A program made the translations under genes and the position numbers. From positions 1-23,927 of IMG/VR virus record IMGVR_UViG_3300020438_002638: DNA of 23,927 nucleotides. One strand, written 5' to 3'. The notes under the pieces were generated by a model. It was not told the origin of the DNA. It made no database searches and was given only the letters and a program-made list of their open reading frames with translations. This DNA is from a virus. Below are positions 44 to 22,556 of the stretch, piece by piece (the first letter of the stretch is position 1; each line of letters starts with the position of its first letter).

Positions 44-2560
44 ATGTTTTATACCAATGTTGCAAGATATTCAAACTACATTCTTTACCGAGGTTATGAC
101 GATCTCGGTAAAAAAGTTTTTAAGAAAGAAAAGTTCAAACCAAAATTCTTTGTACCATCCAAGACTGAAACTGGATGGCGTGGTTTGGACGGTAATCATA
201 TAGGTGAAGTAGATTTCGACTCTATGAGAGAAGCACGTGATTGGTTGGAACAATACCAACATGTCACTGGTTTCCAAGTCTATGGAACGAACAACTACTT
301 ACACCAGTATGTCACACGCAAGTTCCCAAAAGATATTCGGTTTGATCGTGATAAGATCAACGTTACCACTATTGACATTGAGACTGAGTATGAAGGTGGA
401 TTTCCTAAAGTAGCAGTTGCAGACCAAAGAGTACTTGCAATAACTATTAAGAATAATATTGATGGGATCTATCATGTGTGGGGTCTACAAGATTACGACA
501 CAGAGAAGGCTCTGATCAAACCAGTCAACTATGTCAAGTGTGAGTCAGAACCAGAACTACTCGCTCGATTTGTAAATCACTGGAGACAGGAAGAAAACTT
601 ACCAGACGTTATCACTGGTTGGAATGTTCGGTTCTTTGATATCCCCTATTTGGTTAATCGTATCAATCGCGTTTGTGGTGTTGATATGGTCAGACAGTTT
701 TCACCATGGGGTCTGATAGATCAACGCAAGATACGAAGACTCAACAAAGAAGAAATGACCTACGACATCAAAGGCATCCAAACTATGGATTACCTTGAGT
801 TGTTTCAGAAGTTTGGTTACTCGTATGGTAAACAAGAGTCATACAAACTTGATCACATTGGTCATGTTGTGCTCGGTGAGAAGAAACTGTCTTACGAAGA
901 ATCTGGTTCATTGAAGAACTTGTACAAAGATGATTTCCAAAAGTACATCGACTATAACATGAAAGATGTGCAGTTGGTTGATCGTCTTGAAGAAAAGATG
1001 GGACTCATTACACTGGGTATGACTATTGCATATAAAGGTGGTGTGAACTATCAGGATGCGTTTGGTACTACAGGTATCTGGGAATCTATCATCCATCGTA
1101 AACTCAACAACATGAAAGTTGTTCCATCTGCATTCAAGATAGAGCACGAGAAGAGTGAGTTTGCAGGTGGTTACGTGAAGAACCCACAGACAGGTGCACA
1201 CGACTGGGTTGTGTCGTTTGACTTGAACTCACTGTACCCAAACATTATTGTGCAATGGAACATGTCACCAGAAACTCTACTGAAGAGTCCACCAGATAAT
1301 CTACCTAGTGGTGTTGATCATTATCTCAAAGCCTTTGATGGTGTAGATCCTATACATCCTGCACAGAGAGAAAGAAACAATGCAGTTGCATCAAACGGAT
1401 CTATCTATAGTAAGAAGATCGATGGTGTGATTCCAAATATTATTATTGACTACTATGATGAACGTAGTTCTGTCAAGAAACAAATGTTATCTGCAGAACA
1501 ATCATATCAGAAAGAAAAAACATTTGAATTAGAAAAAGAGATAAACACTCTCCACAATCAACAGATGGCGATTAAGATCTTGATGAACTCTTTGTATGGT
1601 GCGATGGGTAACAGGTACTTCAAGTATTATGATCTACGTATTGCAGAGGGTGTGACTCTCACTGGTCAGATGGTTATCCAATGGGCAGAGAAAACAATCA
1701 ACAACGAAATGAATAAAATATTAAAGACTGAGGAAGATTATGTACTGGCTATCGATACCGACTCTGTTTATATTAACATGTCTGCTCTTGTACGGCAACT
1801 TAATCCTAACGATCCTGTTAAGTTCTTAGACAAAATTTGTAGAGATCACTTCGAACCTAAACTCGCAAAATCTTTTGATGATTTGTTCCACAAGATGAAC
1901 TGTCACAAACCTAGAATGGAAATGGCACGTGAGGTTATTGCAGATCGTGGTATATGGACTGCAAAGAAGAGATACATTCTCAACGTGCATAACTCTGAAG
2001 GTGTGCAATACGATGAACCCAAACTAAAGATGATGGGTATCGAAGCAATCAAATCTTCCACACCACAAGTTGTCCGTGACAAATTCAAAGAGGCGTTCAA
2101 GATTATTATATCGTCTACTGAGAAAGAAACGCAGGACTTCATCCAACAATTCAAATCAGAGTTTAAACAGTTACCACCAGAGTCTATTGCATTTCCACGT
2201 GGTGTGTCTAATATAACAGACTGGAGTGATCGTAAACAAATATACAAAAAGGGGACACCCATACATGTTCGTGGGTCTCTACTATATAATAAGTACTTGA
2301 AGGAATATAAACTCACCAACAAGTACGAACCGATTGAGAATGGTAGTCGTATCAAGTTCTGTTACTTGAAGATGCCTAACACAATCAAAGAAAACATAAT
2401 CTCATTTCCAGATGTGGTTCCACAAGAGTTTGGTCTGGGAAGATTCATAGATTATGACAAACAATTTGAAAAGACTTTTATTGAACCATTGAAAATGATA
2501 CTAGACGCGGTCAATTGGTCAGTAGAAGAACAACAAACACTAGAGGATTTTTTCGCATGA
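44..2560 (+). CDS. 43: DNA polymerase, family B, T4 gp43-like
   Basis: Replicative DNA polymerase with 3'-5' proofreading, 838 aa (T4 gp43 is about 900 aa). Exonuclease motifs are intact: ExoI DIE (D111, E113), ExoII around [12 protein letters not shown] (N194, D199), ExoIII YNMKD (D308). Polymerase motif A is DLNSLYP (393-399), motif [10 protein letters not shown] (511-519) and motif C IDTDS (D571, D573). Motif C reads I-D-T-D-S where most family-B enzymes have G-D-T-D-S. The last residues, QQTLEDFF, fit the canonical clamp-binding PIP box QxxLxxFF. The start at 44 is supported by the perfect promoter immediately upstream and by a typical gp43 N-terminus (MFYTNV). The stop overlaps the next start (ATGA). 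Identification is close to certain. Confidence 0.98.
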
Positions 2561-2901
2561 AGGCTGGTAAAGTATGGGGTACGACAGAACTTATAGAAGC
2601 AAATGGTGCACTGGAGTTCCATCGTATTGAAATGGAAAAGGGTGGGGTTTGTTCTAAACACCTACACAGATATAAATGGAATGGGTTCTATGTAGAATCT
2701 GGTAAGATGTTAATCCGAACTTGGCAGAGAGATTATGACCTTTGTGATATTACAATCCTAAACATGGGTGATTACCATAAAGTGAAGCCTGGACTCTACC
2801 ATCAATTTGAATGTTTGGAAAGTGGTATTGCATACGAATTGTACTGGGCAGAATTTAATCACAACGATATAGTTAGAGAATCTGTAGGAGAAATGAAATG
2901 A
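2557..2901 (+). CDS. cupin-domain protein
   Basis: A 114-aa single-domain cupin. Cupin motif 1 is visible as GGVCSKHLH...E (H35, H37, E47) and motif 2 as [15 protein letters not shown] (H82), giving the usual metal-binding His/Glu set. The general resemblance is to the small mannose-6-phosphate isomerase type II or WxcM-like cupins, but the substrate cannot be read from sequence. A phosphomannomutase gene at 12273 makes a sugar role plausible. The start is ATG 2557, which overlaps the gp43 stop as ATGA; an in-frame start further upstream would lie inside gp43 and is unlikely. It overlaps the next gene by four bases, so translation is probably coupled. Confidence 0.85.
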
Positions 2902-3281
2902 TACGCGAGACGAACTTTGATAAAGTAAGAATTTTTATGGAAACGTTTGGTCAAGAAGTGAAGAGAGAACCAGAGTTACCAGATGATGAAACTTCTAAAC
3001 TTAGATTAGAACTTATTGCAGAAGAACTTGGTGAACTAGAAGAAGCAATTGCTAATAAAGATTTTGTTGAAATCGCAGACGCACTTACTGATATATTATA
3101 TGTAACCTATGGTGCAGGTCATGCTTTTGGTCTTGACCTTGATGCATGTTTCAGAGAAGTCCAAAGATCCAATATGTCTAAGTTGGGAGAGGATGGTAAA
3201 CCTATCTATCGTGAGGATGGTAAGGTTCTCAAAGGCCCAAATTATTCTGAACCAGATCTAAAAAAGACTTTACAACTGTAA
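2898..3281 (+). CDS. mazG: MazG-like nucleoside triphosphate pyrophosphohydrolase
   Basis: A 127-aa all-alpha NTP pyrophosphohydrolase, a family that hydrolyses (d)NTPs to NMP plus PPi. The metal-binding acidic helices are visible: E38...E42-E43 in RLELIAEELGELEE, and E58xxD61...D65 in EIADALTDILYV. The tail EDGKPIYREDGKVLKGPNY is characteristic of the phage MazG/PRA-PH-like subgroup. It overlaps the cupin by ATGA. The stop codon lies inside the terminator hairpin at 3268-3287. A role in nucleotide-pool or alarmone management during infection is known for phage MazG relatives but is inferred here. Confidence 0.9.
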   Translation: MIRETNFDKVRIFMETFGQEVKREPELPDDETSKLRLELIAEELGELEEAIANKDFVEIADALTDILYVTYGAGHAFGLDLDACFREVQRSNMSKLGEDGKPIYREDGKVLKGPNYSEPDLKKTLQL

Positions 3282-3303: not shown

Positions 3304-4407
3304 ATGAATACATTGAATACAGAGCAAGCACAATTTTGTGCAGGTATCTTTAATGATTACTTTGGTCAGTTCTCAAGAATTGATCAATATATGCGTGATC
3401 AAAAACTTGCACAAATAAAAGGTGTTCCAACTTCATTGCCAGGCATGGGTCTGGACGATGATATGTTTGATGACTTTTCTATGTCACCAGAAGATATGGA
3501 TTTGCAAGTAGTAGAACCTAGTAATTTTATCTGGGACACTTCTATCAACATGATATCAAGTCATAGTAATATGGTGAGTATCCCTGGCAAGACTGTAAAA
3601 CTTGCAGTCAAAGAAATGAATACAAATAAGTATGTTGGATTTATTCGACTTGGTTCTCCAGTTATAAACTGTAAACCTCGTAATGATTTGTTAGGTCAAG
3701 TTCCAGAACTTACCATATTTAACAAAACAACTGTCATGGGGTTTGTTATAGTTCCTTGTCAACCTTTTGGGTATAATTATCTTGGTGGTAAACTTCTTGC
3801 CGCTTTGTGTTGTTCTCATGAAGTGAGAGAAAAACTCAACAAAAAATATGACATGAACTTGTGTATGTTTGAGACTACAAGTCTATATGGTAACTCAAAG
3901 TCTGCGTCTCAGTATGATGGTATGAAACCTATGTTAAGAAATAGGGGCTTGACAATCTCTGATTTTATCCCTATGCTTAACGGTGAACCATATCTTAATC
4001 TTGTCAAGTATGTTGAGGATGTATTTGGTAAAGGCGAACTAGTACCAGAAGGTGCATCAAGTAGAAAACTAAAAATGACTAATGCTATTATTGGACTGTT
4101 AAAAAGATCTTTGAAGGGTGAAGACCTTGCAAAGTTTAAACTAACAATTGACAATGCAAAACAGTTGACAGAACAGAAAAGATATTATGTGTCTAACTAT
4201 GGTATTGAAAACTATATTGACATTGTAAATGGTAAAACTGATAAGATAGTTGAAGCGCCAAACTTCGACAGGTACGGTCAAGATCAACTTATAGAATGGT
4301 GGAAGAAACTTGCCACTAAAAGATATAAAAAATTAAAAGAAGAAGACAGACTAAGAAAAGATCTTGAGGTATGGACTGAGGACAGTCAAATTGATATTAT
4401 AAGGTGA
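3304..4407 (+). CDS. DUF4338/DruA-like protein
   Basis: A 367-aa protein without an assigned function. The middle (about residues 95-220) follows the order of motifs I recognise from the DUF4338 domain, the domain of DruA from Druantia defence systems and of some transposon-associated proteins. These are a 'GFIRLGSP' strand, an 'RNDLLG' turn, a hydrophobic 'GFVIVPCQPF' strand, a helix ending 'REKLNKKYDMNL', and 'MFETTSLYG' matching the family's 'LETFVD.....G' segment. The family's GTCYKAANW segment is not clearly present. The C-terminus is Lys-rich (KRYKKLKEEDRLRKDLE). It is first in its transcript, from a leaderless promoter. The match is by eye, so treat it as a hypothesis. Confidence 0.6.
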   Translation: MNTLNTEQAQFCAGIFNDYFGQFSRIDQYMRDQKLAQIKGVPTSLPGMGLDDDMFDDFSMSPEDMDLQVVEPSNFIWDTSINMISSHSNMVSIPGKTVKLAVKEMNTNKYVGFIRLGSPVINCKPRNDLLGQVPELTIFNKTTVMGFVIVPCQPFGYNYLGGKLLAALCCSHEVREKLNKKYDMNLCMFETTSLYGNSKSASQYDGMKPMLRNRGLTISDFIPMLNGEPYLNLVKYVEDVFGKGELVPEGASSRKLKMTNAIIGLLKRSLKGEDLAKFKLTIDNAKQLTEQKRYYVSNYGIENYIDIVNGKTDKIVEAPNFDRYGQDQLIEWWKKLATKRYKKLKEEDRLRKDLEVWTEDSQIDIIR

Positions 4408-4410
4408 TAC

Positions 4411-5328
4411 ATGTACTCACTAACTATATTTAAGAATAGATACGATAACAAGACACATCGTAGAATGGACTTTGACAACTGGTCGGAGTTCAAAAGTTTA
4501 TTCTATCAACTATCTAAACAACCACTAGCGTCTAAAGAAGATGCAAACTTGATTTCTCCTGCGACCTACCAACCCAATACAACTCGTAAGAATGTAAACG
4601 TAGTAGATTGGGGTGGTTGGTGTGCAGTAGACGTAGATGAACACAACTTCGAAGGAGACCTAAAGAATGAGTTGGATAGTAGGTACACTTATATCTGTTA
4701 CAGTACTGCTAGCAGTCGAGAAGATTTTCCAAAGTTTCGCTTGGTGTTTCCACTTACAAAAAGAGTTGGATCGGACTCTATTAAACATTTCTGGTACGCA
4801 CTCAACACCGAACTCAATTCGATTGGAGATAAACAAACTAAGGATTATTCACGGATGTATTATATCCCTAGTACGTACTCTGGGGCTTTCAACTTTATTT
4901 TTGATAATACTGGTGTGGATATAGATCCAGATGAACTTATGTTCAAACATCCGTATGCAGAGAAATCTAATTTAAATAATTTTTTCGATAGATTACCCGA
5001 AGATATAAAACAAGAATATCTAAGGCATAAGAAACAAAGACTAGACAATACTAACATTCACTGGACATCTTATAAAGACTGTCCGTTCTTTCCGAAGAAA
5101 CTAGGATCTGAATATAGACTAATTACTAACACTGGTTGGTATCACAAGATGTATCAGATCATGGTCGCAATTGCAGGTAATGCGATAAAGAAACAATATC
5201 CGATCACTGCACAAGAAATATCTAAACTGTGTAGAGAACTAGATATGGAAACTGGTAATTGGTACGAGAACCGTCCTCTGGACAAGGAGGCTGATCGTGC
5301 ACTTGAATATGTTTATAGGAATGGTTAA
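4411..5328 (+). CDS. putative AEP-type (PrimPol-like) primase
   Basis: A 305-aa protein. Residues about 60-165 resemble the archaeo-eukaryotic primase core of phage and plasmid PrimPol proteins: a hydrophobic strand ending DVD (D74, D76 in WCAVDVDEHN), then YSTASSREDFPKFRLVFPL (with R110), then a KDYSRMYYIPSTY segment (D145) like the 'D.aR...iP.T' motif of that family. The C-terminal region (about 235-305) looks like a PriCT-type helical domain. T4 gp61 is a DnaG/TOPRIM-type primase, so this would be a different enzyme class. No DnaG-type primase is present in this window. Four bases separate it from the upstream gene. The function is an inference from motif order. Confidence 0.55.
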   Translation: MYSLTIFKNRYDNKTHRRMDFDNWSEFKSLFYQLSKQPLASKEDANLISPATYQPNTTRKNVNVVDWGGWCAVDVDEHNFEGDLKNELDSRYTYICYSTASSREDFPKFRLVFPLTKRVGSDSIKHFWYALNTELNSIGDKQTKDYSRMYYIPSTYSGAFNFIFDNTGVDIDPDELMFKHPYAEKSNLNNFFDRLPEDIKQEYLRHKKQRLDNTNIHWTSYKDCPFFPKKLGSEYRLITNTGWYHKMYQIMVAIAGNAIKKQYPITAQEISKLCRELDMETGNWYENRPLDKEADRALEYVYRNG

Positions 5329-8765: not shown

Positions 8766-9235
8766 TGAAGACTGGACTAACTGCGTCTACATTTGACTTG
8801 CTACATGCAGGTCATATTGCAATGTTAAGAGAGGCTAAGTCACAGTGTGACTATCTTATCTGTGCATTACAAATAGATCCGTCTATTGATAGACCAGATA
8901 AAAACTCACCAGTACAATCTATCGTAGAACGATATGCACAACTGTCTGCAGTAAAGTATGTGGATGAAATACTGGTGTACCAATACGAAGAAGACTTGTT
9001 GGACATCATACAGATGTATCCAATAAACCTTAGAATCCTTGGATCAGAATATCGTGATAAGGATTTCACTGGTAAGGATGAGTGTCGTAGATTAGGCATT
9101 CAACTTTATTTTAATAATAGAGAACATAGGTTCTCATCATCTGATCTAAGAAAAAGAGTGAGACTAAAGGAGGGTGGAGATGAAACAAGAAAGATATTAC
9201 GAGAGTATACTGAGAATGAATCGGGAAGCGAATAA
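8765..9235 (+). CDS. cytidylyltransferase-like protein (glycerol-3-phosphate type)
   Basis: A 156-aa nucleotidyltransferase of the HxGH superfamily, which transfers a nucleotidyl group from CTP (or ATP) to a phosphorylated acceptor. The N-terminal signature TFDLLHAGHIAML contains HAGH (14-17). RILGSEYRDKDFTGK (90-104) matches the 'G.D.....TG' region, and HRFSSSDLRKRV (121-132) matches the 'iSST.LR' nucleotide-binding motif. The closest known group by length and motif is glycerol-3-phosphate/sugar-phosphate cytidylyltransferases. The substrate is not determinable from sequence, although sugar-nucleotide genes sit directly upstream. Confidence 0.85.
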   Translation: MKTGLTASTFDLLHAGHIAMLREAKSQCDYLICALQIDPSIDRPDKNSPVQSIVERYAQLSAVKYVDEILVYQYEEDLLDIIQMYPINLRILGSEYRDKDFTGKDECRRLGIQLYFNNREHRFSSSDLRKRVRLKEGGDETRKILREYTENESGSE

Positions 9236-9266
9236 AAAAGAAGATCAAGAGGAATCCAAAGAATAG
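9180..9266 (+). CDS. 28-aa micro-ORF with strong ribosome-binding site
   Basis: The ORF starts at ATG 9180 inside the end of the cytidylyltransferase and ends TAG 9264-9266 just before the -35 of the uvsX promoter. An excellent Shine-Dalgarno sequence (AAAGGAGGG, 9166-9173) lies six bases before the ATG. The peptide is very charged (MKQERYYESILRM..., ending QEESKE). Part of the ribosome-site sequence also encodes KEGG of the upstream protein, so chance is possible. Confidence 0.45.
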   Translation: MKQERYYESILRMNREANKKEDQEESKE

Positions 9267-9268
9267 AC

Positions 9269-9297
9269 TTTACATCCGTTTTATTATGTGTTATAAT
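9269..9297 (+). promoter_or_regulatory. sigma70-like early promoter for uvsX
   Basis: TTTACA (9269-9274), a 17-nt spacer and TATAAT (9292-9297). AGAC precedes the -35, as at the promoter at 3269. The leader has AAAGGAG (9304-9310) six bases before ATG 9317. Confidence 0.82.
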
Positions 9298-9316
9298 TGT
9301 GTTAAAGGAGTAATTA

Positions 9317-10363
9317 ATGTCAATAATGGATAAACTCAAAAAGAATAGTAAGTTGGATCACACAGCTATTCTTTCTGAGTCTAAATTTTTTAATGAAAAA
9401 GATATGGTTCCAACCCACGTTCCAATGATGAACGTTGCCTTGTCTGGATCAATCGATGGTGGTCTTGCGCCTGGCCTTACAATACTTGCAGGGCAATCAA
9501 AACATTTCAAGACATCATTCGCTTTAATCATGGCGAGTGCTTATCTCAAAAAATATCCAGAGTCAGTTATCTTATTTTATGACTCTGAGTTTGGGTCACC
9601 ACAATCGTACTTCGAACAGTATGATATCGATCCCTCACGTGTACTACACACACCCATCACAAATGTAGAAGAACTCAAGTTCGATCTAGTAAATCAACTT
9701 GACGCTCTTGATCGTGATGAACGTGTATGTGTTGTAATTGACTCTATTGGTAATCTAGCATCCAAGAAAGAATTAGAAGATGCAATCAATGAGAAGTCAG
9801 TTGCAGATATGTCTCGTGCAAAATCCTTGAAAGGTTTGTTCCGCATGTGTACGCCGTACCTTGCAATGAAGAACATTCCTATGATTGCAGTAAACCACAC
9901 GTACAAAGAAATTGGATTGTTTCCTAAAGATATAGTCGGTGGTGGTACAGGTCTGTACTATTCTGCAGATAACATCTGGATCATTGGTCGCCAACAGGAA
10001 AAGAAAGGCACTGAGATCGAAGGATATCATTTCATAATTAATGTGGAGAAATCTAGATATGTCAAAGAAAAGTCTAAAATCCCTATTACTGTTACTTGGG
10101 ATGGTGGTCTGCTTTCTCATAGTGGACTCCTCAATGTCGCTATCGCAGGTGGTTATATCCGCAGTCCTAGTACTGGGTGGTATAGCATTGTTGACAGAGA
10201 TAGTGGAGAACTCTTACCATCCAAATATAGAGCAAAAGATACCTTACATCCCGAATTCTGGGTGCAAATATTACAAGAGACTGACTTCAAAGAGTTTGTC
10301 AAACAGAAATACTCTATTGGTGGGTCTCTTAGTAACGAAGCTGGTGGCGAAAGTGAAGCATGA
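9317..10363 (+). CDS. uvsX: UvsX, RecA-like recombinase
   Basis: A 348-aa T4-type recombinase that forms filaments on single-stranded DNA and drives strand invasion for recombination-dependent replication. The Walker A motif is the T4-like variant GQSKHFKTS (59-67), with Phe where RecA has Gly before the lysine. Walker B is VVIDSIGNL, and the glutamate-rich YDSEFGSP strand and AVNHTYKEIGLF segment follow T4 UvsX order. The C-terminus is polar and acidic. Start ATG 9317 has a strong Shine-Dalgarno sequence and its own promoter. The usual T4-like order uvsX, small gene, 41 is kept. Confidence 0.96.
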   Translation: MSIMDKLKKNSKLDHTAILSESKFFNEKDMVPTHVPMMNVALSGSIDGGLAPGLTILAGQSKHFKTSFALIMASAYLKKYPESVILFYDSEFGSPQSYFEQYDIDPSRVLHTPITNVEELKFDLVNQLDALDRDERVCVVIDSIGNLASKKELEDAINEKSVADMSRAKSLKGLFRMCTPYLAMKNIPMIAVNHTYKEIGLFPKDIVGGGTGLYYSADNIWIIGRQQEKKGTEIEGYHFIINVEKSRYVKEKSKIPITVTWDGGLLSHSGLLNVAIAGGYIRSPSTGWYSIVDRDSGELLPSKYRAKDTLHPEFWVQILQETDFKEFVKQKYSIGGSLSNEAGGESEA

Positions 10364-10685
10364 AGAAAACGACACCTATGTATTAATACCCAATGAAGTT
10401 AATGAGGAGTTCTGGTCTGTCAGAATCCTCAAGGGTATGTTTAATGAAACGGTGATTCGTTATGGTAACATTGCATTCAATGAAGTTGCAGAAGGTATTA
10501 TGTCATTTAACTTTGTTGTTGAGTCTTCACCAGACTCTTCTATCACTGAAGAGAATGAAGTGCTTCAAGAAGTTGCAGGTGACATACTACAAAAGATTAT
10601 CGCAAACGCACTGGACAACGATGAAGGTATCGTAGGTAAGAAACCAGAAGATGATGAATGGGAAGAGGTAACTGCAGAAACATGA
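10353..10685 (+). CDS. conserved hypothetical between uvsX and 41
   Basis: About 110 aa; start taken as GTG 10353 (then KHEENDTYVLIPNEVN), overlapping the uvsX stop by 11 bases. The frame stays open far upstream inside uvsX, but that part is a shadow of uvsX. Visible features are an N-terminal beta-rich part with NEEFWSVRILKG and RYGNIAFNE, then a very acidic C-terminus. It occupies the position of T4 gene 40, although I see no convincing similarity to the T4 gp40 membrane protein. It overlaps gp41 by ATGA. The function is unknown. Confidence 0.7.
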   Translation: MKHEENDTYVLIPNEVNEEFWSVRILKGMFNETVIRYGNIAFNEVAEGIMSFNFVVESSPDSSITEENEVLQEVAGDILQKIIANALDNDEGIVGKKPEDDEWEEVTAET

Positions 10686-12058
10686 ACACTAACTTAGAGC
10701 AAGTGATCCTAAGAAACATTCTGACTGATGATGAGTATACAAGAAAAGTTCTACCGTTTATCAAACCAGAGTATTTCGAAGGTATCTATAGAATACTATT
10801 CAGAGAGACTGCAAAGTTTGTAACCAAGTATAACAAGTTACCGACTGCAGAGGCATTCAAGATTGAACTTGATCAGTCTGACAGACTCAATGGTGAGAAC
10901 TATACAGTGGCGATGGATCTTTTACCACAGTTGTTTGCAAAGGAAAAGACTGACTCTGATTGGTTGATACAGAACACAGAGAAGTGGTGTCAAGATCGTG
11001 CGATATACAATGCAGTGATGGAGTCTATCTCTATCATTGATGGTAAACACGAGACTATGACTAAAGGTGCATTACCAGATCTGTTGTCTAAGGCTCTGGG
11101 TGTTGCATTTGACACAAACGTTGGTCACGACTATATTGACAATGTCGAGGATCGTTGGGACTTCTATAACAAACAAGAAGAACGTATACCATTTGATCTA
11201 GAACATTTCAACACAATCACTAAAGGTGGTGTACCGAAGAAAACTCTGAACATTGCACTGGCAGGTACTGGTGTTGGTAAGAGTTTGTTCATGTGTCACG
11301 TTGCTTCTAGTGCATTGACTGATGGTAAGAATGTATTGTACATCACTATGGAAATGGCAGAGGAACGTATCGCAGAACGTATTGACGCAAACTTACTCAA
11401 CGTTCCTATCGATCAGTTAGAGACTATGCCTAAGACTATGTTCACTGAAAAGGTGAAACAATTGTCTTCTAAGACTAAGGGTAAACTAATCATCAAAGAG
11501 TATCCTACTGGATCTGCACACTCAGGACACTTTCGTGGACTTTTAAATGAATTAAAATTAAAACGACAGTTTGAACCAGATATCATTTTTATAGATTATT
11601 TAAATATTTGTGCGTCAAGTAGAATGAAAGGAATGGGTGGTGCAATCAACTCATACAACTACATTAAAGCAATTGCTGAAGAGTTACGCGGCCTTGCAGT
11701 CGAGTTTGACGTACCGATCTTCTCTGCAACACAAACGACTCGTAGTGGTTATTCTAACTCGGATGTTGGGTTGGAAGACACGTCCGAGTCTTTTGGATTA
11801 CCCGCTACCGCTGACCTCATGTTCGCTCTCATATCTACAGAAGAACTCCAACAACTAGGTCAGATCATGGTCAAACAATTGAAGAATAGATACAACGATC
11901 CTACAAATAATAAAAGGTTTGTTGTTGGTGTTGACCGTAGTAAGATGAGATTGTTTGATGTAGATCCTAACGAACAGACATTGACAGACGATACTCCAGT
12001 GTTTGATAAGTCGGATGCAGGAGAGAACATATCAAAGTTTAAAGATTGGAATATCTAA
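10682..12058 (+). CDS. 41: replicative DNA helicase, T4 gp41 / DnaB-like
   Basis: A 458-aa hexameric 5'-3' helicase (T4 gp41 is 475 aa). The N-terminal helical domain starts MNTNLEQVILRNIL. Walker A is GTGVGKS (195-201), ITMEMAEERIAERID holds the H1a glutamate, and Walker B is IIFIDYLNI (D305). The SATQTTR helix and the arginine-finger segment KNRYNDP come near the C-terminus, followed by VVGVDRSKMRLFD. Start ATG 10682 overlaps the upstream stop as ATGA; a longer in-frame start at 10658 is less likely because the MNTNLEQ start matches DnaB family N-termini. It works with the primase at the fork. Confidence 0.96.
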   Translation: MNTNLEQVILRNILTDDEYTRKVLPFIKPEYFEGIYRILFRETAKFVTKYNKLPTAEAFKIELDQSDRLNGENYTVAMDLLPQLFAKEKTDSDWLIQNTEKWCQDRAIYNAVMESISIIDGKHETMTKGALPDLLSKALGVAFDTNVGHDYIDNVEDRWDFYNKQEERIPFDLEHFNTITKGGVPKKTLNIALAGTGVGKSLFMCHVASSALTDGKNVLYITMEMAEERIAERIDANLLNVPIDQLETMPKTMFTEKVKQLSSKTKGKLIIKEYPTGSAHSGHFRGLLNELKLKRQFEPDIIFIDYLNICASSRMKGMGGAINSYNYIKAIAEELRGLAVEFDVPIFSATQTTRSGYSNSDVGLEDTSESFGLPATADLMFALISTEELQQLGQIMVKQLKNRYNDPTNNKRFVVGVDRSKMRLFDVDPNEQTLTDDTPVFDKSDAGENISKFKDWNI

Positions 12059-15833: not shown

Positions 15834-16256
15834 ATGAAATATTATATTACAGGGACGAGGAGAGGTCTTGGTAAATCACTTGAAGAAAAATATGGTAATT
15901 GTAATAACATAGAAGATTGTGATATCTTTATCAATTGTAAACATAATAAATTTGAACAAGTGGAATTGTTATATAAAGCGGCTAAGTTAAATAAACGTAT
16001 AATAAACATTGGTTCCCATGCAAGTGATTTTACTTTTAAATACAGGTATGCCGTTGAAAAGAGAGCATTGAGAGAAGCAAACAATAATTTATTTTGTGAT
16101 GGTGTAAACACAACCTGTTTAAATTTTGGTTACTTTGATAGTCCAAAAGTAGATCACGTAAAAGAAAAAAAGATGACTATAGAATATTGTGTTGAAATTA
16201 TTGATTGGGTATTAAAACAACCATATAGATTAAAGGAATTGACAATTTGTCCATGA
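15834..16256 (+). CDS. minimal short-chain dehydrogenase/reductase
   Basis: A 140-aa SDR-like protein, far shorter than the usual 250 aa. The nucleotide loop is TGTRRGLG (6-13). The central NIGSHAS (Ser) and the catalytic YAVEK (Tyr-x3-Lys) are present in IGSHASDFTFKYRYAVEK. CLNFGYFDSP resembles the family's 'N.V.PG.v.T' strand. The strands between the loop and the NNAG-type segment are largely deleted, so it is a core-only enzyme or a binding protein. It follows the tmRNA coding piece by about 20 bases and has only a weak Shine-Dalgarno sequence. It overlaps the next gene as ATGA. Confidence 0.75.
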   Translation: MKYYITGTRRGLGKSLEEKYGNCNNIEDCDIFINCKHNKFEQVELLYKAAKLNKRIINIGSHASDFTFKYRYAVEKRALREANNNLFCDGVNTTCLNFGYFDSPKVDHVKEKKMTIEYCVEIIDWVLKQPYRLKELTICP

Positions 16257-16735
16257 GTGATTACATAGAAAAAATAGATACCGTTGATATTGATAAAATA
16301 AAATCAGAATTTAATAGTTACTTAGAGAGAGAAATAAAAGGTACTCTTCAAGTTAGTTTGCAAGGATTTTCAAAAGATGATTTCACTGGAGCAAATGGTA
16401 AAACGGACAATCTAAAAAATAATGAAGAAGAATGTAATGTTCGTTTATATGATGATTACAAATATACATACGATGTCATAGAAAAATTTAATCTATACCG
16501 ATCAAGACTGATGATCATATCAGATAAAAGAAATTATAGTTGGCACTTAGATTATAGTAAAAGAATCCACATACCACTAATTACAAATGAAAGTTGTTTC
16601 TTTATAATAGAGGAAACAAAAATACATTTACCTGCAGATGGTAGTGTATATCTAGTTGATACAACTAAGTGGCATACCTTTGTAAATGCAAATAGAAATA
16701 AATTTGATAGATCACACATTGTGGGGTGTGTATGA
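16253..16735 (+). CDS. aspartyl/asparaginyl beta-hydroxylase-like 2OG oxygenase, copy 1
   Basis: 160 aa. The C-terminal half is a double-stranded beta-helix of the AspH type: SWHLDYSKRIHIPL gives iron ligands H98 and D100 plus R104, the third ligand is H141 in KWHTFVNAN, and the 2-oxoglutarate-binding arginine is R153 in DRSHIVG. The N-terminal half is a poorly conserved helical region. Start ATG 16253 overlaps the SDR stop as ATGA. The protein family uses Fe(II), O2 and 2-oxoglutarate to hydroxylate side chains or small molecules; the substrate is unknown. The downstream gene is a paralogue with identical spacing of all five residues. Confidence 0.85.
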   Translation: MSDYIEKIDTVDIDKIKSEFNSYLEREIKGTLQVSLQGFSKDDFTGANGKTDNLKNNEEECNVRLYDDYKYTYDVIEKFNLYRSRLMIISDKRNYSWHLDYSKRIHIPLITNESCFFIIEETKIHLPADGSVYLVDTTKWHTFVNANRNKFDRSHIVGCV

Positions 16736-17229
16736 AATCGCCAATAGAAAAAATTGGAGAGATAGACTTAGATACCTTATTGAAAGAAATTGGTCATATC
16801 AGACTTCCTAAAGAAGGTGCAAGACAATTTCCTTTTCAGAAAAGAAAAGATGATAATGATGGAGAGTCTGCTAAAGGTAATGACTATACGTTTAGAGTGG
16901 ATGATCTAGAATATGATACTCTTATCTACGATGAATATAACTATACTAATTTAATAATAGAAAAGTATAATATGTGTAGAACACGCATTATGTGGATGAA
17001 ACAAAAATTTGCATATGGGTGGCATAAAGATCACAGTCCTAGAATACATATACCATTAGTTACAAATGAACACAACATGTTTATCATTGACGATAATGTT
17101 TACAGAATACCAGCTGATGGTGGTGTTTATCTAGTGAACACAACATTACCACACACATTCGTAAATGCTAACTCAGAACGATTTTTAAGATCACATCTGT
17201 TAGGAACTTCTAAGGTACAGTATAAGTAG
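16732..17229 (+). CDS. aspartyl/asparaginyl beta-hydroxylase-like 2OG oxygenase, copy 2
   Basis: 165 aa. The catalytic residues are at the same numbers as in the upstream copy: H98 and D100 in GWHKDHSPRIHIPL, R104, H141 in PHTFVNAN, and R153 in LRSHLLG. Outside these motifs the two proteins differ widely, especially in the N-terminal half, so the duplication is old. The start overlaps the upstream stop (ATGA). The 3' end converges with and overlaps the minus-strand gene by 20 bases; no terminator is seen in between. Confidence 0.85.
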   Translation: MKSPIEKIGEIDLDTLLKEIGHIRLPKEGARQFPFQKRKDDNDGESAKGNDYTFRVDDLEYDTLIYDEYNYTNLIIEKYNMCRTRIMWMKQKFAYGWHKDHSPRIHIPLVTNEHNMFIIDDNVYRIPADGGVYLVNTTLPHTFVNANSERFLRSHLLGTSKVQYK

Positions 17230-17662
17230 ATTCACTTTTTAAAGGATCTCCAATAACCATACCACTTTCTCGAAAATCAGATCTTACAACTTGCAATACT
17301 TTTTGTTCTGCATTTTTTATATCAGACCATATTATATCAAGTTCTGCAGAATCTACTTCTCTAGCATTCATAGTATACTCATAAGGAAAAGACTCCAGAT
17401 AAGTTGCAGGAGGTATGTCGGAATCGTATTCATCTCTTGCAGATTTATTTTCCCATACCTGTGTAAACTTAAAGTGATCTCCATCCACGACCTTTGATCT
17501 TACTATAAGTTTCCCACTGTCTCTAGCCTTTCTAAACGCATCACCATACTTGTTCCAATATTCTGCGTCTGGCCAGATAGTTTGAAATCTTTTATCTGGG
17601 TTTTGAATGTAATCAACAAAGTTACTATCTGTAACCTCAAAGGTTGTTAACCAGTAACTCAT
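17210..17662 (-). CDS. hypothetical protein, last gene of the minus-strand operon
   Basis: 150 aa, not recognised. It begins MSYWLTTFEVTDSNFVDYI and is rich in aromatic and charged residues. IWPDAEYWNKYGDAFRKARDSGKL and TQVWENKSARDEY could form helices. No signal peptide, membrane helix or catalytic motif is visible. The start overlaps the end of the radical-SAM gene by 26 bases. Confidence 0.7.
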   Translation of the reverse strand: MSYWLTTFEVTDSNFVDYIQNPDKRFQTIWPDAEYWNKYGDAFRKARDSGKLIVRSKVVDGDHFKFTQVWENKSARDEYDSDIPPATYLESFPYEYTMNAREVDSAELDIIWSDIKNAEQKVLQVVRSDFRESGMVIGDPLKSESTYTVP

Positions 17663-19013
17663 TTTCTTTCTCCAACTTTCTTAATATTAATTTCTCTTGT
17701 TGTTCTATTCTTGTGTCACTTTTTAGACCAATCTCTTTTGTCAAATCGTGAACTTGTTTCCATCTTTCATATCTTTTTCTATATGTAAGTTCACCATCTT
17801 TTGTCCAACTTTTCCATAACTGAACATCACCATGCCATAGATCTTTATTCTCAAAAATTTCTGTGTCTGGCATTAGCATTGCAATATTACATCTTACCTC
17901 AACGTTATATTTATACGGTTCAGATCTTTTTAATAGTTCTAAAGTATCACTGAAATCTTCTTCAGTCTCTGTGGGATATCCAACTATTAACAAATACAAC
18001 ATATCTATTTTTCTTTTACCTAGTGCTTCAACACTTTCGTACATATCTTTATTTGTAAATTTTTTCTTCATGTGCCATCTTACGGTGTCACTTCCACTTT
18101 CAATTCCTATCCACAATCCTTTACATCCACTAGCAGCGAGATTATCCCAATCTTCTTCTCTCATTCCACTTCTAAAAATAAATTGTCCTCTCCATTCAAT
18201 TGGCAGGTTTGCATCCGCAAGTTCTTTACAGAATACTCTAAACTCTTTCAATGAACCATTTACAAGACTGTCACTAAAATGAAACTTCTTTATACCATAT
18301 GTTTTATATTGGTGTATCATTTCATCTGCAACTTCTTTGCCTGGCCTAAATCTGTACTTTTTCCAGTTGACATGCACATCACAAAACGTACACTGTCTTA
18401 CACATCCTCTACTACCAGTAACAATTAAAGTTGGTTTGGAGTATTCGTCAAAATTAATATCACTGTAATCTGGAATAGGTAAGTTTGATATGTCATTCAT
18501 TTGTGGAAAATTGTAGTCTTGACCTCTAAGTAAGGCTGGTAGAGATAAGTCTCCTTCACCGTTTACAACATAATCTGTTAGGTTTGTTTGTAACATTTCA
18601 TCTGAAAATGTTCTGGTAATCGTAGATAAGTCAGTGTGGTTATCTACCATTCCATTACCACCTATTATAATTTTTTTCTCTGGATATTTTTTTCTAACTC
18701 TTTTTAAAAACAACCTTGTAAATATTTGACTGTTTAGGGTAAAGACGCTTGCACCTATATGAGAGTATCCTTCAAAAGATTCTATATAATCATCAATAAA
18801 ATATTGATAATCATTTATGTAGTCTTCGCCAGTTTCGCACCAATGTACCGCGTCCTTTCCAAACCTTGTCAAGAACGCATGATTTAAATCAAAGCAAGTA
18901 CTTTTTATATTCTCTCGATTCAAAACACCTTTTAGAAAAACAATACTTGGTGCAGGATGCCAGTAATTCTGACTAGGCATTGATACAAGAGCAACGTTTA
19001 AATCATCTGCCAT
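17637..19013 (-). CDS. radical SAM protein with N-terminal B12-binding-like domain
   Basis: 458 aa from ATG 19013 (GTG 19037 would add eight residues). The N-terminal part (LNVALVSMPSQNY... to about 165) has the layout of a cobalamin-binding Rossmann domain (VSMPS start, IIIGGNGMV, VVNGEGDLSLPALL), but the DxHxxG cobalamin-ligand motif is not evident. The radical-SAM cluster motif CVRQCTFC gives C204, C208 and C211. FHFSDSLVNG and GLWIGIESGSD follow, as expected for the SAM-binding strands. The product is a methyl, thio or ring-rearranging reaction on an unknown substrate. It sits among oxygenases in the same operon. It overlaps the upstream TauD-like gene by 16 bases. Confidence 0.9.
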   Translation of the reverse strand: MADDLNVALVSMPSQNYWHPAPSIVFLKGVLNRENIKSTCFDLNHAFLTRFGKDAVHWCETGEDYINDYQYFIDDYIESFEGYSHIGASVFTLNSQIFTRLFLKRVRKKYPEKKIIIGGNGMVDNHTDLSTITRTFSDEMLQTNLTDYVVNGEGDLSLPALLRGQDYNFPQMNDISNLPIPDYSDINFDEYSKPTLIVTGSRGCVRQCTFCDVHVNWKKYRFRPGKEVADEMIHQYKTYGIKKFHFSDSLVNGSLKEFRVFCKELADANLPIEWRGQFIFRSGMREEDWDNLAASGCKGLWIGIESGSDTVRWHMKKKFTNKDMYESVEALGKRKIDMLYLLIVGYPTETEEDFSDTLELLKRSEPYKYNVEVRCNIAMLMPDTEIFENKDLWHGDVQLWKSWTKDGELTYRKRYERWKQVHDLTKEIGLKSDTRIEQQEKLILRKLEKENELLVNNL

Positions 19014-19804
19014 GGTTGATATAAAGTCTTTCTCCACAATAATCTTTCTTCTTCTGTTGTAATTGTTCCTCTATAGTGTACATTTATCCAGTTGTCAAGG
19101 ATTAATAAATCCCCAACTTGCCACTTGTGAACATATAGGTATTTATCCTTTAACATGTCAGAAAACCACTCATTTATCTCTTCAGGTAATACTAAATCTC
19201 TATTAGGTTTCTGTATTGCCATTGTAAAACTAAATCGTGGTGCAGGTACACCTTCATCTTGTTGTAAACCATATGTATCGCCTGGAACAGGCATTGCACC
19301 CCAGTAGAAACTCTCTTTCTTTGTGATTGGGTGTATCTTAACAAATGAACTCCAAAACGGTTGACATCCACCTTTGTAACATTGTGTTAAAACTTTTAAT
19401 GATCTAAAATATTCTTTTTCCTTTTCTGGGAGATCTTCAAACCAGTCAGTGATATTCAACATTGCTAAAGAACCATCTTCTGGATCTGGTATTTTTACCG
19501 CATAAAATGCTCTCAGTGGAAACTTATATTTTTCGTGCCATGGATTATCGGCGTGCCAAGGAATACTCATTTTTCCAAATCTTGTATTACTAGACCAGTT
19601 GACTATTTCATTTTCATCAACTGTTTCTCTATGGATTTTGTGTGTTTCAACTGACCAAGGTTTTGTGATAGATGAACAGAAATCATAAAATTCATCTCTG
19701 TTTAAATCTAAACCTCTCTGAACCCAATAACCATCTCTACGAGATGATTCAAGAATCTCTTGTGGTGTACTTGAAATGTGGGTCAACCCAACTCTCCTCA
19801 ACAT
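18998..19804 (-). CDS. TauD/TfdA-like Fe(II)/2OG dioxygenase
   Basis: 268 aa. Iron ligands are H84 and D86 in IPWHADNPWH and H243 in LILDNWINVHYRG; the 2-oxoglutarate arginine is likely R258 in LLWRKTLYQPW. DGSLAMLNITDWFEDLP and the WQVGDLLILDNW strand follow the TauD family order. The metal triad is intact, so it should be catalytically active. The ATG 19804 start overlaps the upstream gene by 56 bases; a TTG at 19786 with AGGAG before it is an alternative. The substrate is unknown. Confidence 0.85.
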   Translation of the reverse strand: MLRRVGLTHISSTPQEILESSRRDGYWVQRGLDLNRDEFYDFCSSITKPWSVETHKIHRETVDENEIVNWSSNTRFGKMSIPWHADNPWHEKYKFPLRAFYAVKIPDPEDGSLAMLNITDWFEDLPEKEKEYFRSLKVLTQCYKGGCQPFWSSFVKIHPITKKESFYWGAMPVPGDTYGLQQDEGVPAPRFSFTMAIQKPNRDLVLPEEINEWFSDMLKDKYLYVHKWQVGDLLILDNWINVHYRGTITTEEERLLWRKTLYQPWQMI

Positions 19805-20432
19805 AATTTGGTCTAGACAATTTCATTTTGTATGGTGAATTTTTTATTAAATTTAAATATTTGTTGGTTGGTTTTCCATCCCAAGGACTTCCCACACACA
19901 AAGTTATTTTTTCCTGATCACTTGGGTCTAGACTATGGACATGACTTCCATCTAATACGTAACTGTCATAACAGTCTGGGACATAAATTTTATTACTATC
20001 TTTATCTAAAAAATATAACTTATCTATATTTCCATTTAGTACAAGTCTATATTTGTGTTGACGTGTTCCTATCTCATCGGCCTTTGTATCCATGTGAACA
20101 TTAAGACCTAAGTTTGCTTTAGTTCTCAATACGTTTAATCTACCTACAGGATTCATCCATGAAAATATCTTTTTTTCAAATATCTTTATGCTATTTTTTA
20201 AAAACCCTTCAACGTCTGTATATTTAAAATCTCCTTTAGATGTGTCACCAACTTTTTCTCTCTGTCCTCTTACACCACCACCATTGTAGACTGGTAATAT
20301 CCTACATCCTCTGAATTCATTACCTTGGTAATACTTATCGGGTACATTCAAAATTTCATTTAATATAATTTTTTTTTCTTCCTGTGTGATGCCAATATCA
20401 ATTGCACAGAATGTGAAGTTCATAAAATTCAT
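19749..20432 (-). CDS. 2OG-Fe(II) oxygenase-like beta-helix protein
   Basis: 227 aa from ATG 20432, which overlaps the upstream stop as TAATG (ATG 20438 would add two residues). HxD is seen in LNVHMDTKADE (H113, D115), preceded by RLNVLRTKANL, and the distal ligand is likely H166 in DGSHVHSLDP. The usual 2-oxoglutarate arginine ten or so residues later is not clear (the segment reads EKITLCVG), so cofactor binding may differ. The general plan resembles AspH/phytanoyl-CoA-hydroxylase-like proteins. Substrate unknown. Confidence 0.7.
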   Translation of the reverse strand: MNFMNFTFCAIDIGITQEEKKIILNEILNVPDKYYQGNEFRGCRILPVYNGGGVRGQREKVGDTSKGDFKYTDVEGFLKNSIKIFEKKIFSWMNPVGRLNVLRTKANLGLNVHMDTKADEIGTRQHKYRLVLNGNIDKLYFLDKDSNKIYVPDCYDSYVLDGSHVHSLDPSDQEKITLCVGSPWDGKPTNKYLNLIKNSPYKMKLSRPNYVEESWVDPHFKYTTRDS

Positions 20433-21073
20433 TACCATCTCTTATTAGCATCATGATCATCTTGTGACCAAGGGACTCCGTTATCAAATAGTTTAAACCT
20501 TTTACCTTGTTCATAGTGAGATACCAATTGTTCCCAAGGTACAACTGTCATATGGGTTTTCAAAATAAGACGTTCTGTAGGTTCATCATTAAATACTCCA
20601 TGCGGTTTGTTTACATTTAAAAAGCAAGGATTTTTATACTCATGCCTTGTCAGTTCTGTCACATCATCTTTAAACAAAGCGATTTCTGTTTTACCTTTCA
20701 GAGGTATATTAAATGCACTCAATGCTAGTAGATTCATGTTTACGTGCGGCATGAAAAATCCACCAGGCGGTTGACCTAAAAATGTAAATCTTATAACATG
20801 TTTTATTTGTTCCCAGTCAATATAGACTTCACATTTTTCTGCTATATTTTTTACCCTGTCGTATATGCCTCTCCATACTTTCATGTTGCAATCATAACAT
20901 ACATGATACACTAACTGATTATCAGATTCTCTACCCACCCCATCTGTTTTTAGTTCGTCCCACTTAGGTCTAATTTTTTTGTCAAAGTAATCTAAAAGTT
21001 CTTTTCTTTCTTCAGGAGCATCTTTCCCAGCCTCTGCAAATCTATCTTCATACCTATATCTTAGTTTACTCAT
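20432..21073 (-). CDS. 2OG oxygenase-fold protein with HxN in place of HxD
   Basis: 213 aa. The C-terminal half has the order of an AspH-like beta-helix: FFMPHVNMN (H110, N112), a NIPLKGKTEIALF strand pair, NKPHGVFND (H158) and TERLILKTHM (R168). The expected iron-ligand Asp is Asn (H-V-N). The N-terminal half (residues 1-95) is helical with no recognised motif; two cysteines (C59, C62) are noted. It could be an inactive relative, a different metal site, or simply not iron-dependent. It overlaps both neighbours by a few bases. Confidence 0.65.
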   Translation of the reverse strand: MSKLRYRYEDRFAEAGKDAPEERKELLDYFDKKIRPKWDELKTDGVGRESDNQLVYHVCYDCNMKVWRGIYDRVKNIAEKCEVYIDWEQIKHVIRFTFLGQPPGGFFMPHVNMNLLALSAFNIPLKGKTEIALFKDDVTELTRHEYKNPCFLNVNKPHGVFNDEPTERLILKTHMTVVPWEQLVSHYEQGKRFKLFDNGVPWSQDDHDANKRW

Positions 21074-21918
21074 CTAAACAATCTCCTGTAATCAAATGAC
21101 AGTCTGTATAACAATCTCTCTCCTTGAACTTCATTTCTCTTATGTATACTATGAAATTGATCCATAAAAATAAAATCTCCAGTCTGCCAGTCATCATGAT
21201 GATATATGTATTTTTCTTGGAATACATGTTTAAGTAAATAATCTTTTAACCACTCTTGATCTAGTTTTGTACCGTTCTTTCTCCACATATTTTTGATGTA
21301 ATGAAACGTAAAATACAATCCCTTTTCACCAGTCCACGGATGAGTATACACTAAACTTTTATTTACCCCATCTACAAAATCTGGGTGTTGTTCGAATATA
21401 ACTAACTCTTTATCATCTTTCTCTAAATCATAAAAAGTATTGTTCTCAAATTTAAATAGACATTCAACATCATCTACAATTTCTTTTATATCTTCGGGTA
21501 GATCGATGTATGCTTGTCTTGTATCACAAAAACTTGTAACACTATTCAATCCAGGCTTTACACAGTAAAGAGCAACGCATGACTCTTTACCACTCGGTCT
21601 ACCGTTCCCATTACTATGCCAATCCAATTCTTTATCGGCAAACAAACCAGTTTTCTCTCCATGTTCGTCTCTCTCATTTGTAACTCTAAACAATCCAGGC
21701 ACAGTGTCATGCATAAAAAATTGTTTTGGTTTCATACAATGACCAAAAGTTTCACAGACTTCTAAAACTTTTTGATCAGTTAAACTTTGATTTCTAACTA
21801 GTATAATATTATCAATCGGTATTCTTTTACCAAATTCTTTTATTTCTTCCTTTGACATTCTGTTAAAGTCAAGTTCATATTCAGAACCAATACCAGAAAG
21901 ATTATTCACCTTTTTCAT
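21070..21918 (-). CDS. TauD/TfdA-like protein with HxN metal motif
   Basis: 282 aa. The N-terminal region (MSKEEIKEFGKRIPIDNIILVRNQSLTDQKVLEVCETFG, residues about 21-59) is the typical TauD/TfdA entry segment. The metal motif is LDWHSNGNGRP (H101, N103), where the family has WHxD. The distal part FMDQFHSIHKR (H259) and ERLLYRLSFDYRR (R272) is intact, as is the TSFCDTRQAYIDLP segment. The Asp-to-Asn change would lower or alter iron binding unless compensated. Substrate unknown. It starts one base inside the stop of the upstream gene. Confidence 0.82.
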   Translation of the reverse strand: MKKVNNLSGIGSEYELDFNRMSKEEIKEFGKRIPIDNIILVRNQSLTDQKVLEVCETFGHCMKPKQFFMHDTVPGLFRVTNERDEHGEKTGLFADKELDWHSNGNGRPSGKESCVALYCVKPGLNSVTSFCDTRQAYIDLPEDIKEIVDDVECLFKFENNTFYDLEKDDKELVIFEQHPDFVDGVNKSLVYTHPWTGEKGLYFTFHYIKNMWRKNGTKLDQEWLKDYLLKHVFQEKYIYHHDDWQTGDFIFMDQFHSIHKRNEVQGERLLYRLSFDYRRLFR

Positions 21919-22556
21919 TATAACATAATTCCTTTACTTAATTTTAGATCATCAAAGTGAAAACCAAAGATTGCAACTCTTCTAATTCTAGAATCATTTT
22001 CAACTGTATGCATCCACCCAGTGTTTATAAACCATAATTCTTTAGGTTTCATTTCAAATGATTTTACGCCTTCTCTATCTTTAAATAAAAACTTGCTACT
22101 ATTTTCATTTAAACATATCTGTGCCCTACATATAACACTTGTGTCTGCGTCTATATGCCAATTAAGTGAATGATTAGGTTGCATTTCACTCAATCTAAAT
22201 CTATAAACATTTTTAAACCAAGTAGATAATTCTTTGGATGGTGTGTTATCAATCCAGTGTGAGTAAAGATATTCATCAGTTACGTTCACTTCGTTTGTAG
22301 GATTTTTTTGTAGTATAACCTGTCGGTATTTGTTGGCAACATTAAATACATTTTCGTAGTCACATCCTTTACTAATACCATAGTTGTCTGTGCCAATATC
22401 ACTTTGATCATTACTATCCAAATAAGAATTTAAATAATTATATAATTCATCAGAAACTTCTCCAAGTTTTTTAAACACAACCAGTTTGTTTCTTTTAGGC
22501 CCTGTACCATTAACACGTTGTCTTTTTGTTTGTTCTATCAAACATTTTTCTGCCAT
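21918..22556 (-). CDS. AspH-like 2OG-Fe(II) oxygenase
   Basis: 212 aa. The HxD motif is LNWHIDADTSV (H134, D136), R144 follows in VICRAQICL, the distal ligand is H183 in INTGWMHTVEND, and the 2-oxoglutarate arginine is R192 or R193 in SRIRRVAIFGF. The triad is complete. The N-terminal half is helical and unrecognised. It overlaps the GNAT-like gene by 19 bases and the TauD-like gene by one base. Substrate unknown. Confidence 0.85.
   Translation of the reverse strand: MAEKCLIEQTKRQRVNGTGPKRNKLVVFKKLGEVSDELYNYLNSYLDSNDQSDIGTDNYGISKGCDYENVFNVANKYRQVILQKNPTNEVNVTDEYLYSHWIDNTPSKELSTWFKNVYRFRLSEMQPNHSLNWHIDADTSVICRAQICLNENSSKFLFKDREGVKSFEMKPKELWFINTGWMHTVENDSRIRRVAIFGFHFDDLKLSKGIML

Follow-up and report, generated by a model that had tools for sequence, protein, structure and literature searches.

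A candidate archaeo-eukaryotic-type primase apparently replacing gp61 in a clade of T4-type phages

The window, by which we mean the whole stretch of DNA analysed, is a 23,927-base virus fragment (IMG/VR record IMGVR_UViG_3300020438_002638) in which PHROG matches identify gp43, UvsX and gp41 together, a T4-type replication module. Between gp43 and the uvsX/gp41 genes sits a free-standing gene without a fused helicase, a candidate primase of the archaeo-eukaryotic primase (AEP) type, the stop codon of which (5328) overlaps the ATG of the open reading frame (ORF) that follows. The features of this region are as follows.

44-2560, plus strand: gp43-like family B DNA polymerase (phrog_262, E 3e-300)
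2898-3281: nucleotide pyrophosphohydrolase, by PHROG family assignment
3304-4407: conserved ORF, function unassigned (phrog_19197)
4411-5328, plus strand: candidate stand-alone AEP-type primase, 305 residues, ATG start (phrog_9765 match; AEP fold predicted by AlphaFold2)
4411-4953, plus strand: AEP catalytic domain, residues 1-181, by VIA-align to 6zp9_A
4630-4638, plus strand: motif I, D74-V-D76, the acidic pair of the hhhDhD/E pattern; both Asp invariant in 33/33 aligned proteins
4729-4740, plus strand: motif II region, P-K108-F-R110, assigned by pattern; K108 and R110 invariant (33/33)
4843-4869, plus strand: motif III, D145-x-S-R-M-Y-Y-I-P153, assigned by pattern; D145, S147, R148, Y151 and P153 invariant (33/33)
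4978-5325, plus strand: predicted helical bundle at the C-terminus (approximately residues 190-305), possibly of the helix-bundle/PriCT kind
Between the AEP gene and uvsX: two genes that match sugar-nucleotide genes of phage C48C1
9317-10363, plus strand: UvsX-like recombinase (phrog_97, E 9.6e-89)
10658-12058, plus strand: gp41/DnaB-like replicative helicase, the presumed partner of the AEP (phrog_19, E 2e-132)

We regard the AEP ORF as a real gene because it has at least 597 relatives in IMG/VR, a low ratio of non-synonymous to synonymous substitution rates (dN/dS) and the same operon place in its relatives. Purifying selection is seen in five of nine codon comparisons (dN/dS 0.09-0.20); in the remaining four, dS was saturated. 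The protein has no match among Pfam or NCBIfam models, and annotators should be aware that these models miss this primase. The PHROG families that it matches include phrog_9765 (‘DNA primase’, E 9e-48) and, with weaker scores, helicase-primase families such as phrog_3228 (‘replicative helicase-primase’, E 4e-9); phrog_47, the family to which T4 gp61 (a DnaG/TOPRIM-type primase) belongs, is absent among the PHROG matches up to an E of 1. A sequence search of the PDB (phmmer and profile) gave no credible match. Among named phages, tblastn finds a protein 50% identical in C48C1 and, at 31-33% identity, proteins of four Vibrio phages represented by five records. Another 65 records match in part, and the 54 of these that are listed are mostly Escherichia coli and Salmonella phages with helicase-primase or helicase annotation. 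A scan of IMG/VR with the Vibrio phage AEP protein as the query found no relatives.

The strings DVD, FPKFRLVFPL (residues 106-115) and DYSRMYYIPST (residues 145-155), from which the original prediction had proposed an AEP-type primase, are all present in the ORF as quoted, and their invariant residues hold in proteins with as little as 31% identity to that of the window. In motif II, the basic K108/R110 occupy the place where many AEPs have a His, which this protein lacks. According to Kazlauskas et al. 2018 (PMC5862659), that His is often present but not required, and several AEP families have Gln, Tyr, Arg or Lys instead; the same source gives the DR0530-like family as one with Arg/Lys at this place. 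By hhalign, the window AEP aligns with the N-terminus of the Kagunavirus K1G helicase-primase (probability 95.8%, E 8e-9).

An AlphaFold2 model, for which 37 sequences from the window and IMG/VR were used, has a mean predicted local distance difference test (pLDDT) score of 86.8 and a predicted template modelling (pTM) score of 0.61. The best VIA-align match is the AEP domain of S-2L PrimPol (6zp9_A: Z 9.1, 3.5 Å over 145 residues, model residues 1-181), with RepB′ second (Z 6.7) and CAPP at 6.6; CAPP, the RepB′ catalytic domain, Prim-PolC, LigD and human and yeast primase span Z 4.0-6.6, and the first 18 of 50 rows are, by title, AEP-type enzymes or primase complexes. Foldseek against the PDB returned 399 matches, only two of which have an E of 0.001 or less (S-2L PrimPol, 1.1e-4, and RepB′, 1.6e-4). 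A structure search against predicted viral proteins gave 72 matches at the same threshold; among the 50 listed, 16 are named as primase, helicase-primase, NrS-1-polymerase or VirE/virulence-associated, and the remainder are helicases, replication proteins, unnamed or other. The predicted fold, the PHROG primase families and the invariant motifs together confirm the N-terminal domain as a member of the AEP superfamily, as had been proposed. The proposed match to PrimPol proteins is borne out as far as the fold and the closest solved structure go, but ‘PrimPol’ as a label goes too far.

The C-terminal region is harder to place. The two-domain arrangement is not matched rigidly (root-mean-square deviation of 15.5 Å to full RepB′), and residues 186-305 folded alone (pLDDT 88.5) have as their best solved match, a weak one, the helical bundle of primase RepB′ (Z 5.8, 3.2 Å over 75 residues); the DNA-binding domain of ColE2 Rep is also among the matches (Z 4.1), and Foldseek finds none for the bundle alone at an E of 0.001 or less. 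The PriCT-like tail of the original prediction is therefore retained in part, since a helical bundle is predicted with RepB′ as its best match, which is suggestive only, but no Pfam model recognises it; the bundle is compatible with a helix-bundle/PriCT role and does not prove it. The same matches, with RepB′ second among solved structures for the whole model and first for the bundle, and with ColE2 Rep in the list, could be taken to indicate an initiator-type AEP (RepB′/ColE2-Rep-like) that primes at the origin only and leaves the lagging strand to a host primase. Initiators of this kind belong to small plasmids, which counts against such a reading, as does the presence of a T4-type replisome with gp41 in the same genomes from which gp61 is missing. 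We give it hardly any credence.

The relationship between the AEP and gp61 is one of mutual exclusion in the records searched. The phrog_47 profile finds gp61 in all 14 AEP-lacking T4-type phages (T4, HTVC008M, syn9, ACG-2014f, AG-345-E15, Sf-CH5, DSL-LC03, S-SRM01, S-SM2, AG-345-F15, AG-345-L05, P-SSM2, Melnitz and P-TIM68) with an E of 2.5e-78 or better. Four of these (T4, syn9, ACG-2014f and AG-345-E15) had been included because they were known to carry gp61; the other 10 of the 14, chosen by gp43/gp41 similarity or by name, are a fair test. The same profile finds no gp61 in 86 AEP-bearing records, which comprise three complete named phages (C48C1, henriette 12B8 and V6Aob) and 83 IMG/VR records totalling 3.19 Mb, 27 of them over 40 kb and six over 130 kb (135-160 kb). 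Conversely, an AEP profile matches none of the 14 gp61 phages and all five AEP carriers used as its control. The profile search for gp61 covered 60 records from the first 80 IMG/VR loci, 16 from 80 C48C1-side loci and seven previously unsearched records from an additional set of 80. Searched by tblastn only, the remaining 20 of the first 80 loci (contigs of 4-8 kb) and the locus DNA of 11 loci from prokaryote genome bins gave no gp61 match; nor did the locus DNA of all 80 C48C1-side loci.

Position tells the same story. In nine of ten gp61-bearing Kyanoviridae-type phages, the distance from the gp43 start to the downstream gp61 start is 9-22 kb (24.6 kb in Melnitz), and the window, which reaches 23.9 kb downstream of its gp43 start, gave a best E of 1.6 with three gp61 proteins as tblastn queries; the same queries reached 8e-45 or better in two controls. 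The published T4 core-genome table, as given in PMC2993671, lists gp61. We note that Melnitz (MZ577097) has a 108-residue ORF by gp41 (10446-10772) annotated as ‘DNA primase’, although its gp61 profile match lies at 26017-27054; the annotation is probably wrong.

A diverged or fused gp61/TOPRIM primase elsewhere in these genomes could have been missed by the profile, in which case the AEP would be a second primase. There is a precedent, as Bacillus phage 0305phi8-36 is described as carrying both an AEP and a DnaG (PMC2147016), and the absence of gp61 leans mainly on one profile: PF01807 (the DnaG zinc ribbon) is insensitive, and we rejected it as an absence test in favour of phrog_47 because it also misses T4 gp61. 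However, phrog_47 is broad, matching 10 of 14 control genomes (including E. coli and Bacillus subtilis, presumably through their DnaG) as well as all 14 T4-type controls, and it offered no first-look candidate in the 86 AEP records. Moreover, gp61 lies directly before nrdA in syn9, ACG-2014f and HTVC008M, and the two ORFs at that place in C48C1 match no primase family. A hidden second primase thus seems to us very improbable.

The history of the exchange can be read from gp43. In a tree of 34 rows rooted on T4, the 24 AEP carriers form one clade (100/98) and nine gp61-bearing phages form the other (99/95), eight of these being filed under Kyanoviridae and Sf-CH5 being unclassified. A quick tree of 71 rows agrees, with 60 AEP carriers in one clade (support 98). 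Rows were limited to loci with a gp43 of at least 780 residues, and the 34 of the careful tree were our own choice from the 71. The Vibrio AEP phages were left out of both trees; in 12B8 the polymerase is annotated as two genes. The alternative of placing C48C1 among the gp61 phages, a grouping defined with knowledge of the quick tree, was rejected (approximately unbiased test, p 0.007). Homologues of gp61 are widespread, occurring in 2,377 phage records that range from phages of Escherichia to those of Synechococcus, and the simplest reading is therefore that gp61 is the ancestral primase and that a single replacement brought in the AEP; one such event suffices because all sampled AEP carriers form one clade beside gp61-bearing phages. 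Most simply, then, these sequences suggest that the AEP phages would form a large clade, sister to the gp61-bearing Kyanoviridae, and that a single replacement occurred in its ancestor. The original prediction had placed the candidate in a T4-type replisome, which the gp43, UvsX and gp41 matches and the sister position of gp43 to that of Kyanoviridae corroborate. It had further held that the primase class was replaced if gp61 lay nowhere else in the genome. That condition is supported for C48C1, for six clade contigs of 135-160 kb and for two complete Vibrio phages, the window's own genome being represented only by a fragment.

From the named relatives, the AEP-bearing T4-related phages are probably marine. 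Divergent contigs of the AEP clade (50-58% identity) occur in bacterial metagenome-assembled genomes, among them Rhodobacteraceae, Gammaproteobacteria, Flavobacteriaceae and Planctomycetaceae bins; these are either host hints or binning errors. We dropped the idea of a joint swap of UvsX and primase, the window UvsX being 52% identical to that of T4. The UvsX/RecA-like proteins of HTVC008M (3984-5003) and Melnitz (8854-9915) are 33-35% identical to the window UvsX and seem to be diverged or replaced.

Gene order is kept among the relatives. gp43 lies upstream of the AEP gene in 69 of the first 80 loci. Of the 80 C48C1-side loci, 50 carry the complete series gp43-AEP-uvsX-gp41 and 30 a portion of it, arranged likewise. 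A gp41/DnaB-family helicase is present in seven of seven AEP records and in three of three gp61 phages checked. In one 151.7-kb contig (IMGVR_UViG_3300046171_000193), the gp41 match is split in two pieces (141513-142863), owing to a frameshift, an insertion or an assembly error. Between uvsX and gp41, the window has a small conserved ORF (10041-10685, the true start probably being later), also found in C48C1, in 22 of the first 80 loci and in 55 of 80 C48C1-side loci. Its only match is a weak one to phrog_3998 (function unassigned), and it may be the counterpart, by position, of T4 gene 40 or a helicase partner.

The AEP could instead be a PrimPol for repair or damage tolerance, with host DnaG priming the lagging strand, possibly together with gp41. 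The complementarity described above speaks against this, with no gp61 in any of 86 AEP records and no AEP in any of 14 gp61-bearing phages, and the gene lies in the core replication operon under purifying selection. Furthermore, T4 forks are described as using the phage's own primase bound to gp41 (PMC3016281). We consider a repair role improbable.

We are confident, rather, that the product of this gene serves a T4-type (Kyanoviridae-like) phage as its replicative primase and is of the AEP class; most simply, it replaced the DnaG-type gp61 once, and it most likely works in trans with gp41. In the mechanism we propose, the N-terminal AEP domain would have a two-metal active site, presumably formed by D74, D76 and D145, with K108/R110 standing in for the usual motif II His, and the C-terminal helical bundle would probably hold the template and the initiating nucleotide. 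The helix-bundle domain of AEPs is reported, in a paper on NrS-1, to bind the primase recognition site (PMC8718748). By analogy with T4, where gp61 binds and works with gp41 (PMC3016281), and with the AEP-DnaB complex proposed for Bacillus phage 0305phi8-36 (PMC2147016), the AEP would most likely prime the lagging strand beside the retained gp41 hexamer, and gp43 would extend the primers; action in trans is the most likely arrangement because the AEP protein has no fused helicase.

Several observations weigh against this assignment. The absence of gp61 gains little from 56 of the 83 IMG/VR records, which are under 40 kb, and the window is itself a fragment, so the gp61 status of its own genome is inferred from relatives. 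The residue of K1G that aligns with D145 is not an Asp, and the residue-level hhalign alignment to S-2L PrimPol is not significant (E 0.17); because of the latter, the mapping of the active site rests on motif pattern and fold. For the C-terminal bundle, unrelated helical proteins come close behind RepB′ (Z 5.2 and below). The weakest point is the root of the gp43 tree, which hangs on one long T4 branch, and since every IMG/VR carrier was picked up by its AEP, the presence of the gene in every member of the clade is not established. Adjacency to gp41 is not universal either: in Vibrio phage 12B8 the neighbour of the AEP is a Dda-like helicase, and gp41 lies far from the AEP in both 12B8 and V6Aob.

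The helicase loader gp59 provides a further lead. The profile phrog_269 finds no gp59 in any of 17 AEP-clade records (C48C1 and 16 contigs, five of them over 130 kb and several of them fragments; the window was not searched on its own), and gp41 is retained in all five gp59-negative clade records checked for it. gp59 is present in both of the Vibrio AEP phages and in 11 of the 14 gp61 phages. Loss of gp59 alone is not unique, since gp59 is given for 22 of 26 T4-like phages in PMC3037559; we regard its absence across all the clade records searched as a lead. A tentative extension of our proposal, which we favour less than its contrary, is that an ancestral phage underwent a single remodelling of its T4 primosome: the AEP would have taken over from gp61, gp59 would have been lost, and either the AEP or a new partner would both load gp41 and couple it to priming, the primers perhaps being of DNA or mixed. 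The outcome would be a hybrid, with an archaeal/eukaryotic-class primase operating on a DnaB-class helicase throughout a large T4-type phage clade.

AEPs are already known in phages, even beside DnaB-type helicases, and the C48C1 entry reads ‘DNA primase’. We found no description in the open-licence literature of an AEP supplanting the T4 core primase across a whole clade that retains a T4-type replisome, and one may be published elsewhere. A bacterial-type primase has apparently been exchanged for an unrelated one of the archaeal/eukaryotic type, with the T4 polymerase and helicase kept, in a large group (at least 597 IMG/VR relatives) that would lack the textbook core gene gp61. A single change of primase class within a retained gp43/gp41 replisome would amount to a natural experiment in how tightly a helicase constrains the class of its primase; gp41 surfaces, gp59 loss and priming sites are open to direct comparison between the two sister clades, one with gp61 and one with the AEP.

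Away from the replication genes, positions 16247-23810 of the window hold a cluster rich in 2-oxoglutarate-Fe(II)-type oxygenases, with two TauD ORFs, three that resemble Asp/Arg hydroxylases (of which two fall under Pfam's cut-off), a radical S-adenosylmethionine protein (17637-19037), a fatty-acid desaturase (23079-23810) and two further ORFs without a Pfam match.

Comparison with known systems places the window AEP among enzymes that share parts of its arrangement. CDS0039 of C48C1 (OQ984149, Kyanoviridae) is a 50% identical orthologue in the same gene order, in a complete 156-kb genome without a gp61 match; it was deposited as ‘DNA primase’ without a primase class. The proteins of Vibrio phages henriette 12B8, 2.058.O, 3.058.O and V6Aob are likewise stand-alone primases (31-33% identical, with at least 95% of the length aligned). 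12B8 and V6Aob have a gp41-type helicase and no gp61 found by profile; they differ in that gp59 is detected and in the neighbour of the AEP, which is Dda-like in 12B8, annotated only as a P-loop NTPase in V6Aob, and in neither phage gp41. In the K1G helicase-primase, the N-terminal domain is a detectable sequence relative (tblastn E 7e-4) with aligned motifs I and II, but the motif III Asp does not align and the AEP-like domain shares a 755-residue fusion protein with an AAA ATPase, whereas the window AEP is free-standing; no credible solved structure matches the K1G protein.

S-2L PrimPol (6zp9) is the closest solved AEP domain. Its AEP domain is described as being followed by a PriCT-2 region, but at 737 residues it is much the longer protein and is fused to a VirE/VapE-type domain (PMC8065100); it is considered the sole possible polymerase of its phage. 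For Bacillus phage 0305phi8-36, the AEP (orf181) and the adjacent DnaB-type helicase have been proposed as a replicative complex, but as described in PMC2147016 this phage keeps a DnaG primase, uses DNA polymerase III and has no T4-type replisome. An AEP instead of DnaG is also reported in large phages (PMC7824862); the enzymes in that account are fusion proteins from another phage group, and not stand-alone enzymes accompanying gp43 and gp41. In its proposed role, that of the stand-alone primase of a gp43/gp41 replisome, and in its size (305 residues against 342), the window AEP resembles T4 gp61. It belongs, however, to another family, the TOPRIM fold of gp61 being unrelated to the AEP fold, and it occupies the gp43-uvsX interval and not a place beside nrdA.
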